Origin: Aureimonas sp. AU4
GTDB lineage: Bacteria > Pseudomonadota > Alphaproteobacteria > Rhizobiales > Rhizobiaceae
Length of the DNA: 64,000 nt
Assembly (NCBI RefSeq): GCF_001463765.1
Contig: NZ_BBWK01000002.1
Span: 62,001 to 126,000 of the forward strand
Reading direction: 5' to 3'
Made by a program: the position numbers and the translations under genes. The notes beneath the pieces are model-generated. The model saw nothing but the letters and a program-made list of their open reading frames with translations. It had not been told where the DNA came from and made no database searches. Shown piece after piece: positions 18,031 to 61,904 of this stretch (positions are counted from its first letter, which is position 1; each line of letters starts with the position of its first letter).

Positions 18031-18612
18031 TCAGCCTGCGAACATGGCCTCGCGTCCGCGGCTCATGGCTGCGACGCCCGTGCGGCAGACCTCGACGAGC
18101 CCGAGCGGCGCCATGATCTGGATGAACTTCTCGATCTTCGACGTCTTGCCGGTGATCTCGAAGACGAAGTGATCGGTCGTGGAGTCGACGACCTTCGCGC
18201 GGAAGACATCGGCAAGGCGCAGCGCCTCGACGCGGTCGTCGCCCGCCCCCGCGACCTTCACGAGCGCAAGCTCGCGCTCGATCGGGCCGTCCTCGCCCTG
18301 CCCGGCTGCCGCCTTGGTCAGGTCGAGCACCTGATGCACCGGCACGATCCGGTCGAGTTGGCTCTTCACCTGCTGAATGACGCTCGGCGCGCCCTTGGTC
18401 ACGACGGTGATGCGCGAAAGGTGCTTGTTGTGATCGGTCTCGGAAACCGTCAGGCTCTCGATATTGTAGCCACGGCCCGAGAAGAGGCCGATCACCCGGG
18501 CAAGAACGCCCGGCTCGTTGTCGACGATGACAGACAGCGTGCGCGTCTCGATCGGCGGCTTCTCGTCGGTGATGAAGTAGGCGGAGGCAGGCGGCTGGAC
18601 GGGTAGGTTCAT
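18031..18612 (-). CDS. ilvH: acetolactate synthase regulatory (small) subunit
   Basis: Regulatory subunit that confers valine feedback inhibition on acetolactate synthase. The 193-residue protein starts MNLPVQPPASAYF and shows the N-terminal ACT domain with VDNEPGVLARVIGLFSGRGY, followed by the ALS_ss_C domain ending in FIQIMAPLGLVEVCRTG. The start at 18612 excludes an upstream in-frame extension that overlaps ilvI. It lies 76 bp downstream of ilvI, with a hairpin in the gap, and would share the ilvI attenuator. Confidence 0.95.
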   Translation of the reverse strand: MNLPVQPPASAYFITDEKPPIETRTLSVIVDNEPGVLARVIGLFSGRGYNIESLTVSETDHNKHLSRITVVTKGAPSVIQQVKSQLDRIVPVHQVLDLTKAAAGQGEDGPIERELALVKVAGAGDDRVEALRLADVFRAKVVDSTTDHFVFEITGKTSKIEKFIQIMAPLGLVEVCRTGVAAMSRGREAMFAG

Positions 18613-18651
18613 CGGACAGGCTTTCGATAAGCGGAAGGGGACCAATCGGGA

Positions 18652-18680
18652 CGGGAAGGGCCGGTATGAGCCCCTCCCCG
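18652..18680 (-). other. intercistronic hairpin between ilvI and ilvH
   Basis: On the minus-strand RNA CGGGGAGGGGC pairs with GCCCTTCCCG with one G-U pair and one bulge, around an 8-base loop. It starts nine bases after the ilvI stop. It may stabilise the upstream mRNA or tune ilvH expression; no T tract follows. Confidence 0.45.
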
Positions 18681-18688
18681 CCGTCGCG

Positions 18689-20479
18689 CTAGACCAGCGC
18701 CTTACCCTTCGCGTCGATGGCGTTGGCGACCGCATCGTCGCTCGCCTCGTCGGGCAGCAGCATCTCGTTGTGCGCCTTCCCGCTCGGGATCATCGGGAAG
18801 CAGTTGGCGAGGTTCTGGACGCAGCAGTCGAAGATGACCGGACGGTCGACCGAAATCATCTCGCGAATGCCGGCGTCCAGGTCCCCGGCCTTCTCGACAC
18901 GCAGTCCGATGCCGCCATAGGCCTCGGCCAGCTTCACGAAGTCCGGCAGCGCTTCGGAGTAACTGTTGGAGAGCCGGTTTCCGTGGAGCAGCTGCTGCCA
19001 CTGGCGCACCATGCCCATGTACTGGTTGTTCAGGATGAAGATCTTGATCGGCGCGCCGTACTGAACGGCGGCCGACATCTCCTGCATCGTCATCTGCACC
19101 GAGGCGTCGCCGGCAATGTCGATGACGAGAGCGTCGGGATGGGCGATCTGAACCCCCAGCGCCGCCGGCAGGCCGTAGCCCATCGTCCCGAGACCGCCAG
19201 AGGTCATCCAGCGGTTCGGCTCCTCGAAACCATAGAACTGCGCGGCCCACATCTGATGCTGACCGACCTCGGTCGTGATGAAGGTCTTGCGATCCTTGGT
19301 CAGCTCATAGAGCCGCTTCACCGCGTGCTGCGGAAGGATGACATCGCCCTCCTGGCGGAAGGCCAGGGAGTTGCGAGCGCGCCAGACCTGGATCTGAGCG
19401 TTCCACTCGTCGAGACGCCCGGCCTCCTGCGGACCACCCTCGCGCCAGGCCGACACCATCGCTTCCAGAACATGCGCGACGTCGCCGATGATCGGCAGAT
19501 CGACACGGACGTTCTTGTTGATCGACGAAGGATCGATGTCGATGTGGATCTTCTTCGAGTTCGGCGAGAAGGCATCGAGACGACCGGTGATGCGGTCGTC
19601 GAAGCGGGCACCAACGCAGATCATGACGTCGCACTCGTGCATCGCCATATTCGCCTCGAACGTGCCGTGCATGCCGAGCATGCCCATCCAGCGCTCGCCC
19701 GAGGCCGGATAGGCGCCGAGGCCCATGAGCGTCGAAGTGATCGGAAAGCCGGTCATCTCGACGAGCTGGCGCAGCAGCCGAGAGGCCTCGGGACCGGAAT
19801 TGATGACGCCGCCGCCCGTATAAAGGATCGGCCGACGGGCCGAACGCATCAACTCGACTGCGGCGCGAATCCGCCCTGCCTCGGCGTCGAGACGCGGCTG
19901 ATAGCGTTGGGTCGCACGGGACTGGCTCGGCGGCGTATAGGTGCCGGTTGCGAACTGGACGTCCTTCGGGATGTCCACGACGACCGGACCGGGGCGGCCC
20001 GAGGTCGCGACATGGAACGCCTCGTGCAGAATCTCCGCCAGATCCTCGACGCTCTTCACCAGCCAGTTATGCTTGGTGCAGGGACGTGTGATGCCGACGG
20101 TGTCGCACTCCTGGAAGGCATCCGAGCCGATCAGCGTGGTGGGAACCTGCCCGGTGATGCAGACGAGCGGGATCGAATCCATCAGCGCGTCCTGGAGCGG
20201 CGTGACGGCATTGGTCGCACCGGGCCCCGAAGTCACCAGCATGACGCCGGGCTTGCCGGTGGAGCGCGCATAGCCTTCGGCGGCGTGACCGGCGCCCTGC
20301 TCGTGACGGACGAGGATATGCTTGACGTCGTCCTGCAGGAACAGCGCGTCGTAGATCGGCAGAACCGCGCCGCCGGGATATCCGAAGAGATGCTCGACGC
20401 CATGATCCTTCATGGCCTGAACCACCATCTGGGCACCCGTCATCTTGCGGATACCGGTGTCGATCGTCATGTCGTTCAT
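18689..20479 (-). CDS. ilvI: acetolactate synthase catalytic (large) subunit
   Basis: Thiamine diphosphate enzyme making acetolactate or acetohydroxybutyrate, the first common step of branched-chain amino acid synthesis. The 596-residue protein has the N-terminal TPP domain with FGYPGGAVLPIYDAL and HEQGAGHAAEGYAR. The central domain contains GARFDDRITG. The C-terminal diphosphate-binding motif is GDASVQMTMQEMSA...FILNNQYMGM. It is preceded by a leader peptide ORF, alternative RNA hairpins and a terminator (20554-20695), so synthesis is probably controlled by attenuation. Confidence 0.97.
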   Translation of the reverse strand: MNDMTIDTGIRKMTGAQMVVQAMKDHGVEHLFGYPGGAVLPIYDALFLQDDVKHILVRHEQGAGHAAEGYARSTGKPGVMLVTSGPGATNAVTPLQDALMDSIPLVCITGQVPTTLIGSDAFQECDTVGITRPCTKHNWLVKSVEDLAEILHEAFHVATSGRPGPVVVDIPKDVQFATGTYTPPSQSRATQRYQPRLDAEAGRIRAAVELMRSARRPILYTGGGVINSGPEASRLLRQLVEMTGFPITSTLMGLGAYPASGERWMGMLGMHGTFEANMAMHECDVMICVGARFDDRITGRLDAFSPNSKKIHIDIDPSSINKNVRVDLPIIGDVAHVLEAMVSAWREGGPQEAGRLDEWNAQIQVWRARNSLAFRQEGDVILPQHAVKRLYELTKDRKTFITTEVGQHQMWAAQFYGFEEPNRWMTSGGLGTMGYGLPAALGVQIAHPDALVIDIAGDASVQMTMQEMSAAVQYGAPIKIFILNNQYMGMVRQWQQLLHGNRLSNSYSEALPDFVKLAEAYGGIGLRVEKAGDLDAGIREMISVDRPVIFDCCVQNLANCFPMIPSGKAHNEMLLPDEASDDAVANAIDAKGKALV

Positions 20480-20553
20480 CGCGCGGCCTTATGGTTCGCT
20501 GGACGTCCGGCTTGCAGGACGTTGATGGGTACGGGAACTTGCGGGCAACAAAA

Positions 20554-20572
20554 AAGGCCCTCGAGGGGCCTT
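20554..20572 (-). terminator. attenuator terminator in the ilvIH leader
   Basis: AAGGCCC and GGGCCTT form a perfect 7-bp stem with a 5-base loop, immediately followed on the minus strand by a run of six T residues (20555-20550). It lies 75 bp before the ilvI start codon and after the leader peptide, the classical position for an attenuator terminator. Confidence 0.88.
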
Positions 20573-20629
20573 GGGACTGCGCACACGTGGCAAGAGCCGG
20601 ACGGTCGTCAGACCGTCTCGCGTGTGCGC
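20567..20629 (-). promoter_or_regulatory. mutually exclusive leader hairpins of the ilvIH attenuator
   Basis: GCGCACACG (20629-20621) pairs perfectly with CGTGTGCGC (20587-20579), enclosing an inner hairpin GACGGTC/GACCGTC whose loop holds the leader stop codon. An alternative pairing joins GGCTCTTG (20598-20591) with CAAGGCC (20573-20567) with one bulged U. This would consume the 5' arm of the terminator and cannot coexist with the outer stem. The geometry fits protector, antiterminator and terminator states. Confidence 0.7.
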
Positions 20630-20658
20630 CACCTTACGAGAATGAGCTTCTTGAACAT
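20608..20658 (-). CDS. ilvIH leader peptide
   Basis: A 16-residue ORF reading MFKKLILVRWRTRETV. Codons 5-8 are CTC ATT CTC GTA (Leu-Ile-Leu-Val), the three amino acids made by this pathway. No Shine-Dalgarno sequence precedes the ATG, and the predicted promoter puts the transcription start within a few bases of it, so translation may be leaderless, as reported for the trp leader of Sinorhizobium. The stop codon lies in the loop of the inner leader hairpin. It is too short for standard gene callers; confidence rests on codon content and the surrounding attenuator structures. Confidence 0.75.
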   Translation of the reverse strand: MFKKLILVRWRTRETV

Positions 20659-20666
20659 GGGACGAA

Positions 20667-20695
20667 ACGCTAACGGAGCGTCACGATAGCGTCAA
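20667..20695 (-). promoter_or_regulatory. predicted promoter of the ilvIH leader
   Basis: Minus-strand TTGACG (20695-20690) and TAGCGT (20672-20667) are separated by 17 bases. The -35 matches consensus in 5 of 6 positions; the -10 is weaker. The start point would be about 20660, next to the leader ATG. The element begins only five bases after the upstream gene's stop codon. Confidence 0.55.
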
Positions 20696-20699
20696 GGGG

Positions 20700-21518
20700 C
20701 TACTTCAACGCCCTCGATATGTCCGGCGACCGGATGTGACCATACCGTGCGAGGATGATCGCGTAGATGCCGAACGCGACCAGGCCCGCTCCGGTCGCCG
20801 AGAGGAGGAGCCATCCGTAGGGCCAGGAGCCGATCTCCGCGAGGCCATCATCGAGCCCGGGTGGATGAGCGGCGTTCCAGCGCGATGCGCCGGTCAGGAG
20901 CAGCAAGGCGATCGCTGCGAAGACCACGCCGCGTGCGACAAGGCCGATGCGGCAGACGAGCGTCATCCAACCGGCCTGCGCGGGCGGCAGAGACAGGAAA
21001 CGCAGGAATGACCCGCTGTAGGCCTTGCCCACCTGAGAGCCAGCGACAGCGAGCATGACGAGTCCAAGCGGAATCGTCAGCCACGGCCCGAAGAACCCGG
21101 CCCATCTGTCGACCACCTCGCTTCCGCCGCCGCTGCCGCCAACCGAAACGCCGAACAGGAGCGACCCGACGTAGATCGCGAGGAAACCGTACGCAAAAGC
21201 CGAAATCAGCCGCCCGGCACGAACAGCCAATCCCTTTGCGCCCGTGCCGTAGCCGTCTGCATCGAGGACGGCCTGGAGCAGCCTCCAGATCGCGAATGCC
21301 GGCAGCGCTATGACGAGGAGAACAAGGGAGACATTTCCGAAAGGCGACGCGATGATCTCGGAGATGGCCTCGCGCTCGCTCATCGTGTCACCGCCGGCGA
21401 AAGCGGTGCGAAACGCGAAGAACCCGATCACGATGAAGATCGCGGCGCGCGCGAGATAGCCCAGGCGGGCGCCCTTTTCGATGGCGTCGCGATGGTCGCG
21501 GACCGTTACCGTGCTCAT
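20700..21518 (-). CDS. DUF1206 membrane protein
   Basis: A 272-residue membrane protein built from three related two-helix units. Each opens with a GxLARA/GRLISA/GLVARG-like motif: GYLARAAIFIVIGFFAF, AGRLISAFAYGFLAIYVG, and GLVARGVVFAAIALLLL. This is the DUF1206 arrangement; the function is unknown. AGGGGAGA before the ATG at 21518 supports the start. It follows miaA by 34 bp on the same strand and ends just before the ilvI promoter. Confidence 0.85.
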   Translation of the reverse strand: MSTVTVRDHRDAIEKGARLGYLARAAIFIVIGFFAFRTAFAGGDTMSEREAISEIIASPFGNVSLVLLVIALPAFAIWRLLQAVLDADGYGTGAKGLAVRAGRLISAFAYGFLAIYVGSLLFGVSVGGSGGGSEVVDRWAGFFGPWLTIPLGLVMLAVAGSQVGKAYSGSFLRFLSLPPAQAGWMTLVCRIGLVARGVVFAAIALLLLTGASRWNAAHPPGLDDGLAEIGSWPYGWLLLSATGAGLVAFGIYAIILARYGHIRSPDISRALK

Positions 21519-21552
21519 TGTCTCTCCCCTGCCTTGCGGATGAAACAGTAAG

Positions 21553-22449
21553 TCAGTCGATCGGAACGTCGAGGGGATCGGCGTAACGCGTCCACTCCGG
21601 CCCGAACTGATTGCGAAACCAGGTTTCCTGACGCTTCGCGTATTGTCGGCTTCGGATGATCGAGAGCTCCACCGCTTGGTCCAGCGCCGTGCCGCCATGG
21701 CCCGCCGCGAGGAGTTCCCTTAGGCCGATGGCCTTCTCAGCGAGTGGAGCGCTGCCGTCGAAGCGGTTTGCGAAAGCTAGCGCTTCGTCCATCGCGCCGT
21801 CGCACAGCATCGCATGGAAGCGTTGCGCGATGCGGTCTCGCAACGCTTCGCGCGGCGGCGTCAGAACGATCGCCTTCGCCCGGTTCGGGTCGTATAATCC
21901 TGCTCCCCGCTTCCTCTGGAGTTCGGCAAGCGGCCGGTTGGTTGACTCCACCAACTCCAGCGCGCGAACGACACGCTGGCGATCGGTCGGGCGAATTTTG
22001 AGAGCCGCGGCCGGATCGCGGCGTTCCAACTCGCGATGGAGTAAGGGGATTGGATCGTGCTCGCTCCTCTCGCGCCAGTAGGCGCGGATGGTGTCCGGCA
22101 CGGACGGGAGATCGTCGAGGCCTTCGACAAGGGCCCTGAAGTAGAGCCCGGTTCCCCCGCAAAAGACGGGGATCGTATCAGCCGGCAGCCGCGATATCAG
22201 CGCCTCCACATCCGTCCGCCATTCACCGACCGAGTAGGGTCGATCCGGCGGGACATGACCGTAAAGGTGATGGGGAACTTCCTCCATCTCATCGTCGCGT
22301 GGACGGGCGGTGAGGATGCGCAGACCGTCATAGACCTGCAGGGCATCCGCGTTCACCACGACGCCGCCCCAGTGCTTGGCAAGGCGCACGGCGAGCGCGG
22401 ACTTGCCGCTCGCGGTCGGCCCGGCTATCAGGATCGCGTCCGGTCTCAC
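21553..22449 (-). CDS. miaA: tRNA dimethylallyltransferase
   Basis: Adds a dimethylallyl group to A37 of tRNAs reading UNN codons. The 298-residue protein has the P-loop AGPTASGKSALAVRLA at residues 8-23, the DALQVYDGLRILTARP segment, CGGTGLYF, and the C-terminal RQYAKRQETWFRNQ typical of MiaA. Its start codon is only 22 bp from the divergently transcribed serB start, so its promoter must reach into serB or be extremely compact. Confidence 0.95.
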   Translation of the reverse strand: MRPDAILIAGPTASGKSALAVRLAKHWGGVVVNADALQVYDGLRILTARPRDDEMEEVPHHLYGHVPPDRPYSVGEWRTDVEALISRLPADTIPVFCGGTGLYFRALVEGLDDLPSVPDTIRAYWRERSEHDPIPLLHRELERRDPAAALKIRPTDRQRVVRALELVESTNRPLAELQRKRGAGLYDPNRAKAIVLTPPREALRDRIAQRFHAMLCDGAMDEALAFANRFDGSAPLAEKAIGLRELLAAGHGGTALDQAVELSIIRSRQYAKRQETWFRNQFGPEWTRYADPLDVPID

Positions 22450-28888: not shown

Positions 28889-29053
28889 GGCGGACTCCGG
28901 GTGGTGAATCGATTGGCGCGCGGAATGGTTAGGATCGAATGAGCATCCGCAGAGTCCCCCCTGTCGTTCAGCGGACTGCTGCTGCCAAGTCCAGAACTTT
29001 CGTCGCCGGGAGCCGAGGCAGAAGCGAACCTTGCAGGAGAGCCGCGCCTGGGC

Positions 29054-29082
29054 TTTTCAGGACGAAGTGGACAGCCTATATT
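29054..29082 (+). promoter_or_regulatory. promoter of ssrA
   Basis: TTTTCA (29054-29059) and TATATT (29077-29082) are separated by exactly 17 bases, matching sigma-70 consensus in 4 and 5 of 6 positions. The predicted start at about 29089 coincides with the expected 5' end of the acceptor piece. Confidence 0.65.
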
Positions 29083-29088
29083 CCGCTC

Positions 29089-29376
29089 GCCGGGGCAACC
29101 CGGCTATGGCGATAAACGGCCGGTGTAATAAACCTTTCGGACCCGGGGGCGGTACCCGGCGCCTCCACCTGAGCCCTCCCTTTCGAAGGGTTGAGGCGGG
29201 GGCGAAATAGGATCGACGAGGGTGTAAAGATCGTTCTTTCGCTCGGCATGGTACCACCGTCATCGGGCTGTAAAAATAGTTGCCAACGACAACTATGCGG
29301 AAGTCCGTCTCGCCGCGTAAAGCGGTGCGATAGCTTCAAATCAAGCCCTGGGGGTTCGCACTCCTAGGCGGGGCCC
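29089..29376 (+). ncRNA. ssrA: tmRNA, circularly permuted two-piece form
   Basis: Rescues stalled ribosomes and tags nascent chains. The acceptor piece comes first and ends CGCCTCC-A-CC at 29160-29169. A spacer with a CCCTT/AAGGG hairpin (29178-29190) follows. The coding piece starts GGGGGCG at 29198-29204 and pairs with the acceptor end, including the G3-U70 wobble that is the alanine identity signal. GGATCGACGAGG follows. The resume codon is GCC at 29282 and the tag reads ANDNYAEVRLAA, then TAA (29318-29320). The last A of CCA is not encoded. The T-loop (GGCGGTA between CCGGG and CCCGG) is atypical. The outer ends are approximate. Confidence 0.93.
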
Positions 29377-29410
29377 GGAGGCGCCTGGCAACAGAAGCCT
29401 CCACCTTTTT
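29377..29410 (+). terminator. terminator of ssrA
   Basis: GGAGGC (29377-29382) pairs with GCCTCC (29397-29402) around a 14-base loop, followed by ACC and five T residues (29406-29410). It separates ssrA from sspB. Confidence 0.62.
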
Positions 29411-59098: not shown

Positions 59099-61904
59099 CG
59101 CTCAACGCACCATAGGCTTCCTGCCACTCGGTCGGTCCATTCGAGGGCGAAACCTGGACGGCCGTGACCTTGTACTCCGGGCAATTGGTCGCCCAGTCGG
59201 AAAAGTCAGTCGTGATGACGTTGGCCTGCGTCGCGGGGTGATGGAACGTCGTGTAGACGACGCCGGGTGCCACCCGGTCCGTGATCCGTGCGCGGAGCGA
59301 GGTCGATCCGGCGTGACTGTCGAGCCTCACCCAATCGCGGTCGCGCACGCCTCTTTGCTCCGCGTCGTGCGGATGGATCTCGAGAAGATCCTCTTCGTGC
59401 CAGGCGGTATTGGCCGTTCGCCGGGTCTGCGCGCCCACATTGTACTGCGACAGAATGCGTCCCGTCGTGAGAAGCAGCGGGAAGCGCGGGCCGACACGCT
59501 CGTCTGTCGGCACATATTCGGTGACGATGAACTTGCCCTTGCCGCGCATGAAGGCATCGACATGCATGATGGGTGTGCCGGTTGGGTGCTGCTCGTTGCA
59601 CGGCCACTGAACCGACCCTCGCTCCTCCAGTAGCGCGTAGCTGACGTTGGCGAAGCTCGGCGTCGTGCGCGCCACCTCATCCATGATCTCGGACGGATGG
59701 CTGTAGTTCATGTCCATGCCGAGCGCGCGGGCGAGAAGCTGCGTCACCTGCCAATCGGCATAGCCGCTCCGAGGTGCCATCACCTTGCGCACGCGATTGA
59801 TGCGGCGCTCGGCGTTGGTGAAGGTTCCGTCCTTTTCCAGGAAGGTCGAGCCCGGCAGGAAGACGGTCGCGTAGTTCGCCGTTTCGTTCAGGAAAAGGTC
59901 CTGCACGATCAGGCATTCGAGCGCGGCCAGACCGGCAGAGACGTGCTTGGTGTCCGGATCGGACTGAAGGATGTCCTCGCCCTGGACGTAGAGACCCTTG
60001 AACGTGCCATCGAGCGCGGCATCGAACATGTTGGGGATGCGCAGCCCCGGTTCGGCGTCGAGCCGCACACCCCAAAGGCTCTCGAAGGTTTCGCGAACCT
60101 CGTCGCGGCTGATGTGGCGATAGCCCGTCAACTCATGCGGAAACGACCCCATGTCGCAGGAGCCCTGCACGTTGTTCTGGCCGCGCAGCGGATTCACGCC
60201 GACGCCGCGTCGTCCGATATTGCCGGTCGCCATCGCAAGGTTCGCAATCGCCATGACGCTGGTCGAGCCCTGGCTATGCTCAGTGACGCCAAGACCGTAG
60301 TAGATCGCGCCATTGCCGCCGGTGGCGTAGAGCCGCGCAGCCTTCCGCACGTCGGCTGCCGCGACCCCGGTCACGGCTTCGACCGCCTCGGGTGACCGCG
60401 CCGGGTCGGCCACGAAGGATGCCCAGTCCTGGAATGCGTCCCATTCGCAGCGCTCGCGCACGAACGCCTCGTCCACCAGCCCCTCGGTGACAATGACGTG
60501 GGCCAGTGCCGTCAACATGGCGACGTTGGTGCCGGGCTTGAGCGCGAGGTGATGATCGGCCTCGACATGCGGAGTGCGGACGAGATCGATGCGTCGCGGA
60601 TCGATGACGATGAGCCGTGCGCCTTGCCGCAGACGCTTCTTCAGCCGCGAGCCGAAGACGGGATGACCGTCCGTCGGGTTCGCGCCGATGACGAGCACGA
60701 CGTCGGCCTCTTCGACGGAGTCGAAGTCCTGCGTCCCGGCCGAGGTGCCGAAAGTCGTCGAAAGGCCGTAGCCTGTCGGCGAGTGGCAGACACGGGCGCA
60801 CGTGTCGATGTTGTTGTTGCCGAAGCCTGCCCGAACCATCTTCTGGACGAGGTAGACCTCCTCGTTGGTGCAACGCGACGAGGATATGCCGCCGATCGAA
60901 CCGCGCCCGTAGCGGGCCTGGATGTCGCGCAGCTTCGACGCAGCGTGGCCGATCGCCTCGTCCCAGGACACTTCCTGCCATGGATGCGTGTGATGCTCGC
61001 GGATCATGGGCTGCAGCACGCGGTCGCGATGCGTGGCGTAGCCCAAGGCGAAGCGACCCTTGACGCAGGAATGGCCGCGATTGGCCTTGCCGTCTTTATA
61101 GGGAACCATGCGGATCAGCTCTCCGCCCCGCATTTCCGCCTTGAACGAGCAGCCGACGCCGCAATAGGCGCAGGTCGTCACGGCGGAGTGTTCCGGCAGG
61201 CCGATCTCGAGGACCGCCTTCTCTTCCAGCGTGGCGGTCGGGCAGGCCTGGACGCAGGCGCCGCACGACACGCATTCGGACGAGAAGAAATCATCGGACG
61301 GCAGGCCCGCCGAAACCAGCGCGTCGAAGCCGCGACCCGCGATCGTCAGCGCGAACGTTCCCTGAACGTCCTCGCAGGCCCGCACGCAGCGCGAACAGAC
61401 GATGCACTTGGACGGGTCGAACTGAAAATAAGGGTTCGACACGTCCTTCGGCTTGCCGAGATGGTTCTCACCCTCGGTGCCGTAACGAACCTCGCGCAGG
61501 CCCACCGCGCCGGCCTGCGTTTGAAGCTCGCAGTCGCCATTCGCCGCGCAGGTCAGACAGTCGAGCGGGTGGTCGGAGATGTAGAGCTCCATGACCCCCT
61601 TGCGGATGCGCTTGAGGCGGTCGGTCTGCGTCGAGACCTTCATGCCTTCCGCGACCAGCGTCGTGCAGGAGGCGGGCGTTCCGCGCATGCCTTCCACGTC
61701 GACGACGCAAAGGCGGCAGGAGCCGAAGGCGTCGAGCATATCGGTGGCGCAAAGCTTGGGCACGCCGATGCCTGCCTCCATCGCCGCGCGCATGACGGAG
61801 GTGCCTGCGGGGACGCGAACCTCGCGACCGTCGATCGTGAGCGTGACCTCCGCTTCGCTTCGCGATGCCGGCGTGCCGTAGTCGATTTCATGAATCAGGG
61901 ACAT
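59055..61904 (-). CDS. fdsA: NAD-dependent formate dehydrogenase alpha subunit
   Basis: Molybdenum/tungsten bis-MGD catalytic subunit oxidising formate to CO2. The 949-residue protein has an N-terminal [2Fe-2S] ferredoxin domain (LCATDML, CRLC, SCTTL) and a His/Cys [4Fe-4S] site (HPLDCLTCAANGDCEL). Two ferredoxin [4Fe-4S] motifs follow (CIVCSRCVRAC, CVSCGACVQAC), then the catalytic-domain cluster CAYCGVGC. The active-site cysteine is in ARVCHSPTG (Cys, not selenocysteine), with the adjacent His. GGGAGG five bases upstream supports the ATG. It follows fdsB by 10 bp. Confidence 0.96.
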   Translation of the reverse strand: MSLIHEIDYGTPASRSEAEVTLTIDGREVRVPAGTSVMRAAMEAGIGVPKLCATDMLDAFGSCRLCVVDVEGMRGTPASCTTLVAEGMKVSTQTDRLKRIRKGVMELYISDHPLDCLTCAANGDCELQTQAGAVGLREVRYGTEGENHLGKPKDVSNPYFQFDPSKCIVCSRCVRACEDVQGTFALTIAGRGFDALVSAGLPSDDFFSSECVSCGACVQACPTATLEEKAVLEIGLPEHSAVTTCAYCGVGCSFKAEMRGGELIRMVPYKDGKANRGHSCVKGRFALGYATHRDRVLQPMIREHHTHPWQEVSWDEAIGHAASKLRDIQARYGRGSIGGISSSRCTNEEVYLVQKMVRAGFGNNNIDTCARVCHSPTGYGLSTTFGTSAGTQDFDSVEEADVVLVIGANPTDGHPVFGSRLKKRLRQGARLIVIDPRRIDLVRTPHVEADHHLALKPGTNVAMLTALAHVIVTEGLVDEAFVRERCEWDAFQDWASFVADPARSPEAVEAVTGVAAADVRKAARLYATGGNGAIYYGLGVTEHSQGSTSVMAIANLAMATGNIGRRGVGVNPLRGQNNVQGSCDMGSFPHELTGYRHISRDEVRETFESLWGVRLDAEPGLRIPNMFDAALDGTFKGLYVQGEDILQSDPDTKHVSAGLAALECLIVQDLFLNETANYATVFLPGSTFLEKDGTFTNAERRINRVRKVMAPRSGYADWQVTQLLARALGMDMNYSHPSEIMDEVARTTPSFANVSYALLEERGSVQWPCNEQHPTGTPIMHVDAFMRGKGKFIVTEYVPTDERVGPRFPLLLTTGRILSQYNVGAQTRRTANTAWHEEDLLEIHPHDAEQRGVRDRDWVRLDSHAGSTSLRARITDRVAPGVVYTTFHHPATQANVITTDFSDWATNCPEYKVTAVQVSPSNGPTEWQEAYGALSDESRQVSHRLDAAE

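Follow-up and report, generated by a model that had tools for sequence, protein, structure and literature searches.

The sequence in front of ilvI in the window (the whole 64,000-nt stretch of Aureimonas sp. AU4 DNA analyzed here) is very probably a ribosome-dependent transcription attenuator of the ilvIH operon, a short RNA switch through which the cell probably gauges how much Leu, Ile, and Val it has before making the biosynthetic enzymes. The initial annotation had proposed such an attenuator, with a nearly leaderless leader peptide rich in Ile, Leu, and Val, and a comparison of relatives upstream of ilvI bears this out: 177 of 180 loci of the same RNA family precede ilvI, 179 of the 180 keep a run of at least 3 Ile/Leu/Val codons, and the stems covary with compensatory changes. 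For the ilvIH attenuator, the anatomy, family membership, gene context, conservation, covariation, and spacing are demonstrated below. One part of the earlier drawing, the antiterminator, is a feature of the window sequence and not of the family. The part worth following is an unexpected one, namely that relatives of this attenuator also stand before genes resembling drug pumps.

Leader anatomy and promoter

Reading the minus strand directly locates a promoter-like TTGACG-N17-TAGCGT, a short ORF, 2 stems, and a terminator, all where the initial annotation had put the promoter, the near-leaderless 16-codon ORF, the stems, and the terminator before ilvI. The features are as follows.

20690..20695, minus strand: -35 box TTGACG, read from the sequence, 17-nt spacer to the -10 box
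20667..20672, minus strand: -10 box TAGCGT, read from the sequence, spacer 17
20608..20658, minus strand: leader ORF MFKKLILVRWRTRETV, 16 codons, ATG at 20658, stop TGA at 20610-20608
20635..20646, minus strand: regulatory run CTC ATT CTC GTA, Leu-Ile-Leu-Val, codons 5-8, run kept in the family
20621..20629, minus strand: 5' arm of the outer stem, GCGCACACG, from the fold and alignments
20600..20617, minus strand: inner hairpin GACGGTC-TGAC-GACCGTC, 7 bp, arms 20617-20611 and 20606-20600, stop codon in the loop
20589..20598, minus strand: small hairpin GGC-TCTT-GCC within the outer stem, from the fold and alignment
20579..20587, minus strand: 3' arm of the outer stem, CGTGTGCGC, 9-bp stem, from the fold and alignments
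20567..20598, minus strand: antiterminator of the initial annotation, 20598-20591 with 20573-20567, present in the window, not conserved
20554..20572, minus strand: intrinsic terminator hairpin AAGGCCC-CTCGA-GGGCCTT, from the terminator scan and alignment
20550..20555, minus strand: terminator T run, read from the sequence
20539..20662, minus strand: full-length match to RF02502 Atu_C8, 65.3 bits against a cut-off of 50, model positions 1-122 of 122
18689..20479, minus strand: ilvI, acetolactate synthase 3 large subunit, NCBIfam NF006581 at 1170.8 bits, ATG at 20479
18031..18612, minus strand: ilvH, acetolactate synthase small subunit, NF008864 at 219.1 bits, start assigned by eye (mechanical ORF 18031-18735, with the NF008864 match starting at its residue 63)

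Several features of an attenuator are present, namely a run of product codons in a short ORF, a terminator before ilvI, and a stem with its 5' arm inside the leader ORF, near where a ribosome stalled on the run would sit. The leader RNA folds at -49.1 kcal/mol with z = -3.81, and only 1 of 200 dinucleotide shuffles is equally good, so the observation of a structured leader stands. A terminator scan of 20450-20800 returns 2 terminator-like sites against 0.1 expected, one of them being the terminator of the ilvI leader, whose T run has 5 T residues invariant across 65 aligned loci. As a base rate for the codon run, the window has 413 ATG ORFs with 10-30 codons, and 3 of them, the leader included, have an Ile/Leu/Val run of at least 4 within codons 3-12; the other two are at 59562 (plus strand) and 17396 (minus strand).

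A few further observations concern the neighborhood. The same-strand ORF upstream, 20700-21698 (minus), ends 4 nt short of the -35 box and has no NCBIfam match at E = 0.001. A match to asX2 on the plus strand overlaps the terminator and is subthreshold (22.4 bits, cut-off 70). Weak conserved complementarity, in a mean of 81% of cells, is seen between the 3' arm of the terminator (20560-20557) and a GCCC just past the T run (20546-20543). Elsewhere in the window, a tmRNA gene at 29050-29405 (plus) matches the Rfam alpha_tmRNA model and permuted tmRNA models, with a tag given by ARAGORN as ANDNYAEVRLAA.

A generic sigma-70 scan calls no promoter at the leader in the window, where TAGCGT makes a weak -10 box; the promoter case comes from what relatives conserve. 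Of 178 loci, 115 have a perfect TTGAC whose distance to the start codon is 35-39 nt, as compared with 9 of 534 control windows; TA at a spacer of 16-18 accompanies it in 112 of the 115. This placement predicts a 5' untranslated region of about 0-4 nt, and of about 0-3 nt for the window, in which the ATG at 20658 comes 8 nt after the -10 box. There is a second arrangement, found in 51 of the 178 loci, with TTGAC 50-70 nt upstream of the start codon; 12 loci match neither. A Shine-Dalgarno-like motif is present in 31 of these 51 versus 4 of the 115 with the closer spacing. The predicted leaderless arrangement, to which the leader in the window belongs, accounts for 103 of 116 loci inside the GTDB family and 12 of 62 outside it, which suggests that the same attenuator can come leaderless or behind a longer 5' untranslated region.

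The Atu_C8 family and its leader peptides

The element in the window matches Rfam RF02502 Atu_C8 above the gathering score (65.3 bits, E = 2.1e-11 in 64 kb), and the genome it comes from has this one match. At E of 0.001 or less, the GTDB family sample has RF02502 matches in 146 of 151 genomes, the order sample in 100 of 199, and the class sample in 4 of 190; counting only matches above the Rfam cut-off, these become 141, 28, and 2. The 5 genomes of the GTDB family without a match are 1.2-2.0 Mb in size. The 4 class-level matches include the window itself, one genome of the same order, and one that is apparently spurious; in this last genome (G435), 2 matches fall in one place on both strands and are terminator-like only, and they were excluded from all counts. 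A search of 14 control genomes gave no RF02502 match. The 180 loci analyzed, with the window among them, were taken from 71 of the 103 order-sample matches and 114 of the 150 family-sample matches, plus locus L099 from the class sample; the order-sample matches left out are among the weakest.

An ilvI homolog lies directly downstream on the same strand at 177 of these 180 loci, at a median of 50 nt (range 7-149) from the end of the model to the projected ilvI start. The remaining three, L007, L032, and L099, have a major facilitator superfamily (MFS) transporter gene instead. A named record of Sinorhizobium meliloti has RF02502 at 121.1 bits before the acetolactate synthase 3 large subunit, with a leader peptide that by eye reads MKNFAVILVVGRRMGRMV. 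Three genomes carry 2 copies each, all before ilvI-like genes (L003 and L031 in G023, L085 and L104 in G343, L105 and L106 in G260, pairing loci with genomes in listed order), and in G023 one of the 2 ilvI-like genes is only 67% identical to ilvI of the window.

Rfam classes Atu_C8 as a small RNA, and one has to ask if it is mainly a separate small RNA acting in trans, with its site before ilvI being secondary. The outer stem kept in 100% of cells would suit such a role, as would the precedent of the S. meliloti trp attenuator, for which the available parts of PMC7298713 describe RNA and peptide acting in trans. However, a trans-acting RNA would have no need to lie immediately before ilvI on the same strand at 177 of 180 loci, nor to keep a run of at least 3 Ile/Leu/Val codons in a small ORF at 179 of 180. 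We consider a mainly trans-acting role quite unlikely, although the trans and cis roles can coexist.

A script finds an ORF of 13-20 codons with an Ile/Leu/Val run of at least 3 at the 5' end in 178 of 180 loci, and since the ORFs were chosen for that run, the other counts are conditional on it: the run is at least 4 long in 171 of the 178, and the start is ATG in 168. L026, whose ORF opens at a more upstream position, has LLLVV as seen by eye and brings the total to 179; L041 has I-F-V-V in place of the run. In 81 of 94 loci, counting from the first nucleotide of the last Ile/Leu/Val codon, the outer stem is 8 nt downstream. A ribosome reaches about 12 nt beyond the first base in its A site, so that one paused at the last codon of the run would have its front on the foot of the outer stem.

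By analogy with the known mechanism of such leaders, from which both the stalling and the direction of control are drawn, we propose the following sequence of events. A sigma-70-type promoter would start the RNA at the leader ATG or within a few bases of it, and a ribosome would load onto the nearly leaderless message. With ample charged Leu-, Ile-, and Val-tRNA, the ribosome would pass codons 5-8 and the RNA would stop at the terminator, about 70 nt before ilvI, giving a short RNA of about 110 nt. With a shortage of one such tRNA, the ribosome would pause within the run, and a pause on its last codon would, given the 8-nt spacing, bring the leading edge over the outer stem at its first 4-5 pairs. 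The altered folding of the leader would then let more polymerases past the terminator. The initial annotation had the outer stem blocked by stalling anywhere in codons 5-8; with an edge about 12 nt past the A site, this would fit the last codon of the run, from which the ribosome would reach those first 4-5 pairs, and would fail for the first codons, from which it would fall short.

Conserved stems and the antiterminator question

The structure was scored over 26 pairs, comprising the outer stem, inner hairpin, small hairpin, and terminator. In a plain MAFFT alignment of 65 loci, 95.5% of cells are paired versus 88.8% after shuffling, with both-side changes in 14 of the 26 pairs. In an alignment of 100 more diverse loci that was itself fitted to the structure, a point to keep in mind both for the pairing counts and for column covariation, 95.9% of cells are paired versus 77.2% shuffled and 32%-52% in slid controls, with both-side changes in 24 of 26 pairs. 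The outer stem is paired in every cell of the plain alignment and in 99.1% of the wider set, where 8 of its 9 pairs show both-side changes; the inner hairpin shows them in 7 of 7. The 12 strongest covarying column pairs in the model-fitted alignment all fall within the outer stem, inner hairpin, and terminator. The small hairpin is paired in 87.4% of cells of the plain alignment, with both-side changes in none of its pairs.

This conservation bears on the proposal that the terminator is constitutive, the codon run a product of chance, and ilvI driven from elsewhere. Such an arrangement would agree with the negative generic promoter scan and with the terminator forming in all modeled ribosome states, at family means of 0.94-0.97. 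Terminator formation barely discriminates, however, as it comes out alike in the Escherichia coli leaders used as controls (0.66-1.0), and the run, stems, spacing, and promoter are all conserved in the family, so we regard a constitutive terminator as very unlikely.

A further question is how a stalled ribosome would disarm the terminator. The initial annotation drew a classical trp-like switch in which stalling frees an antiterminator, 20598-20591 with 20573-20567, and a ribosome at the stop codon covers it. In the window, the pairing has 7 pairs with one bulged U, and taken alone it is strong, at z = -2.21 with 6 of 200 shuffles equal, which is to say that it beats 194 of them. Over the 65 aligned loci, the same pairing occupies 47.0% of cells as compared with a shuffled mean of 46.9%, a comparison that depends on the alignment, a slide of -1 giving 55.0%. 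Since the alignment is loose beside the terminator, the test was repeated without alignment, and z then averages +0.16 across 178 loci. At 4 of the 178, no more than 10 of 200 shuffles equal the pairing of these regions, where about 9 such loci would be expected. Locus L103, of the same genus, reads GGCTCCTG there and gives z = -0.26, with 68 of 200 shuffles as strong; 8 loci of the clade of the window average -0.66. We therefore reject 20598-20591/20573-20567 as the antiterminator of the family, since it is at chance in relatives including the one of the same genus.

A wider search for a partner asked how strongly the 5' arm of the terminator pairs with all of the upstream RNA. The mean duplex z is +0.37 over 178 loci, whereas 6 E. 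coli K-12 leaders taken as controls score from -0.73 to -2.82. Across the family, the terminator 5' arm shares with upstream sequence no helix of at least 4 pairs that persists in 80% or more of cells. The window and L103 score -0.88 and -1.70, and the strand involved lies close to the inner hairpin; a partner of the terminator specific to this lineage may therefore exist.

Masking the RNA covered by a ribosome allows the switch logic to be modeled as sequestration of the terminator arm. With a 12-nt leading edge, 5 of the 6 E. coli leaders are sequestered at 0.48-0.71 when stalled versus 0-0.11 at the stop codon, a contrast to be read knowing that even in the ribosome-free state thrL, ilvL, and ivbL reach 0.47-0.75, and that with a 15-nt edge the last-codon values drop to 0.17-0.30 in thrL, hisL, and ivbL. 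The exception at 12 nt is hisL, with 0.67 stalled and 0.68 at the stop. The Atu_C8 loci have no contrast in the family mean at 12 nt, with 0.41 stalled versus 0.44 at the stop; the corresponding values are 0.17 and 0.42 at 9 nt, and 0.46 and 0.40 at 15 nt. For the window, the result reverses between edges, with 0.27 stalled and 0.84 at the stop for 9 nt, 0.33 and 0.82 for 12 nt, and 0.78 and 0.39 for 15 nt. Thus the switch logic of the initial annotation, stalling on the last run codon freeing the antiterminator and a stop-codon ribosome covering it, comes out as drawn at the 15-nt edge and with the opposite outcome at 9 and 12 nt, so that it depends on the ribosome edge assumed. These models treat equilibrium folding, which differs from kinetics, and the controls themselves respond to the edge chosen; covariation, for its part, cannot show up in a strand that does not vary. 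With its pairing at chance across the family and its outcome opposite at 2 of 3 edges, the trp-like switch as drawn is unlikely, even with the strength of the pairing in the window and the 15-nt result in its favor. We accept attenuation and, given the chance-level pairing and lack of model contrast, assign no antiterminator.

Transporter-type copies and known systems

The 3 loci without ilvI lead to a second setting for this attenuator. TIGR00710 Bcr/CflA is the best NCBIfam model for the transporters of L007, L032, and L099, which score above its cut-off for L007 and L099 and below it for L032 (163.4 versus 200.9). A degenerate pattern made from these loci matched 17 stretches in a genome collection described as covering 84,980 species, and the same kind of transporter lies downstream in 16 of the 17. 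Val-rich copies of the attenuator precede Bcr/CflA-type MFS transporter genes at L183-L187, L189-L199, L208-L212, and L214, in Rhizobium, Phyllobacterium, Devosia, Pelagibacterium, Nisaea, other Rhizobiales, and metagenome-assembled genomes. At L188, in Mesorhizobium metallidurans, an intact-looking transporter-type attenuator is present and the transporter gene was not found behind it; copies of a repeat containing GGTGACAGTGCAC, in both orientations, follow the attenuator there. Ten plasmid transporter genes, mostly rhizobial and hand-picked among 30 matches listed by protein similarity, divide into 6 with the element upstream and 4 without.

The leaders of the 2 settings differ in their codon runs. 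VVV occurs in 18 of 22 parsed transporter-type leaders, a set that includes L188 and in which L209 and L210 are alike, versus 14 of 175 ilvI-type leaders, and the run residues are 75 Val, 16 Leu, and 12 Ile as compared with 355 Val, 228 Leu, and 218 Ile; many transporter-type loci are closely related, so these counts are not independent. In a 23rd transporter-type leader, L214, the frame by eye continues past the usual stop. A tree of 23 transporters, midpoint rooted, with long branches and with L198 and L216 left out by the ORF filter, gathers the 3 sampled members lacking the element into a single clade next to Devosia/Nisaea, a placement compatible either with recruitment twice or with recruitment once followed by loss.

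A tentative reading, to which we give somewhat less than even credence, is that Atu_C8 is a portable sensor that has moved, with Val-rich runs, before Bcr/CflA-type pumps. If so, a shortage of valine, or a ribosome slowed at Val codons, would turn the pump on, and the trigger could be, for example, a toxin inhibiting translation or branched-chain synthesis. Alongside this, the family may do its switching with no conventional antiterminator. The apparent control of efflux-type transporters by an amino-acid attenuator is open to test. A link of the Atu_C8 attenuator to efflux genes was not found in the open-licence PMC text searched.

The initial annotation left undecided whether its element had been described. 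Attenuators of this type are already reported for alphaproteobacterial ilv genes, going by the parts of the sources available, and the family itself is Rfam RF02502, named "Rhizobiales sRNA," which has the same stems and the same terminator as the element in the window. The name and type given by Rfam say nothing of a leader, an ORF, or ilvI, whereas 177 of the 180 loci here are ilvI leaders; hence, a family labeled only as a small RNA becomes, within one GTDB family, the ilvIH leader of almost every member sampled. The link between Atu_C8 and ilvI was not found in the open-licence PMC text searched, where the name Atu_C8 brought up no paper, and in the available parts of PMC10117765, PMC12218461, PMC2873474, and PMC3738593 no words starting with ilv occur.

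According to the available portion of PMC2573895, SMc01431 of S. meliloti has an "ilvIH cis regulatory" element in its upstream region, for which Vitreschak et al. 2004 is given as the source; the available portion of PMC1273637 mentions a previously described ilvB leader peptide. The alphaproteobacterial ilv attenuators of Vitreschak et al., as cited there, are of the same type as the element in the window. In Caulobacter crescentus, as far as the available text of PMC4117421 goes, a leader coding sequence with transcription attenuation precedes ilvIH, and Ile and Val codons precede ilvBN; the leader coding sequence with attenuation before ilvIH is what it shares with the window.

Because no conserved antiterminator was found for the family, it is a fair test of how far the textbook trp model carries over. 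The nearest parallel for a leaderless start is rnTrpL/peTrpL of S. meliloti, described in the available parts of PMC7298713 and PMC10117765 as a leaderless 14-codon attenuator ORF that yields a small RNA. The trp attenuator is established by experiment, and the leader in the window is predicted to be leaderless from its -10 to ATG distance. The two differ in that the trp attenuator reads Trp codons and has trpE(G) as its target, whereas the window has Leu-Ile-Leu-Val and ilvIH.
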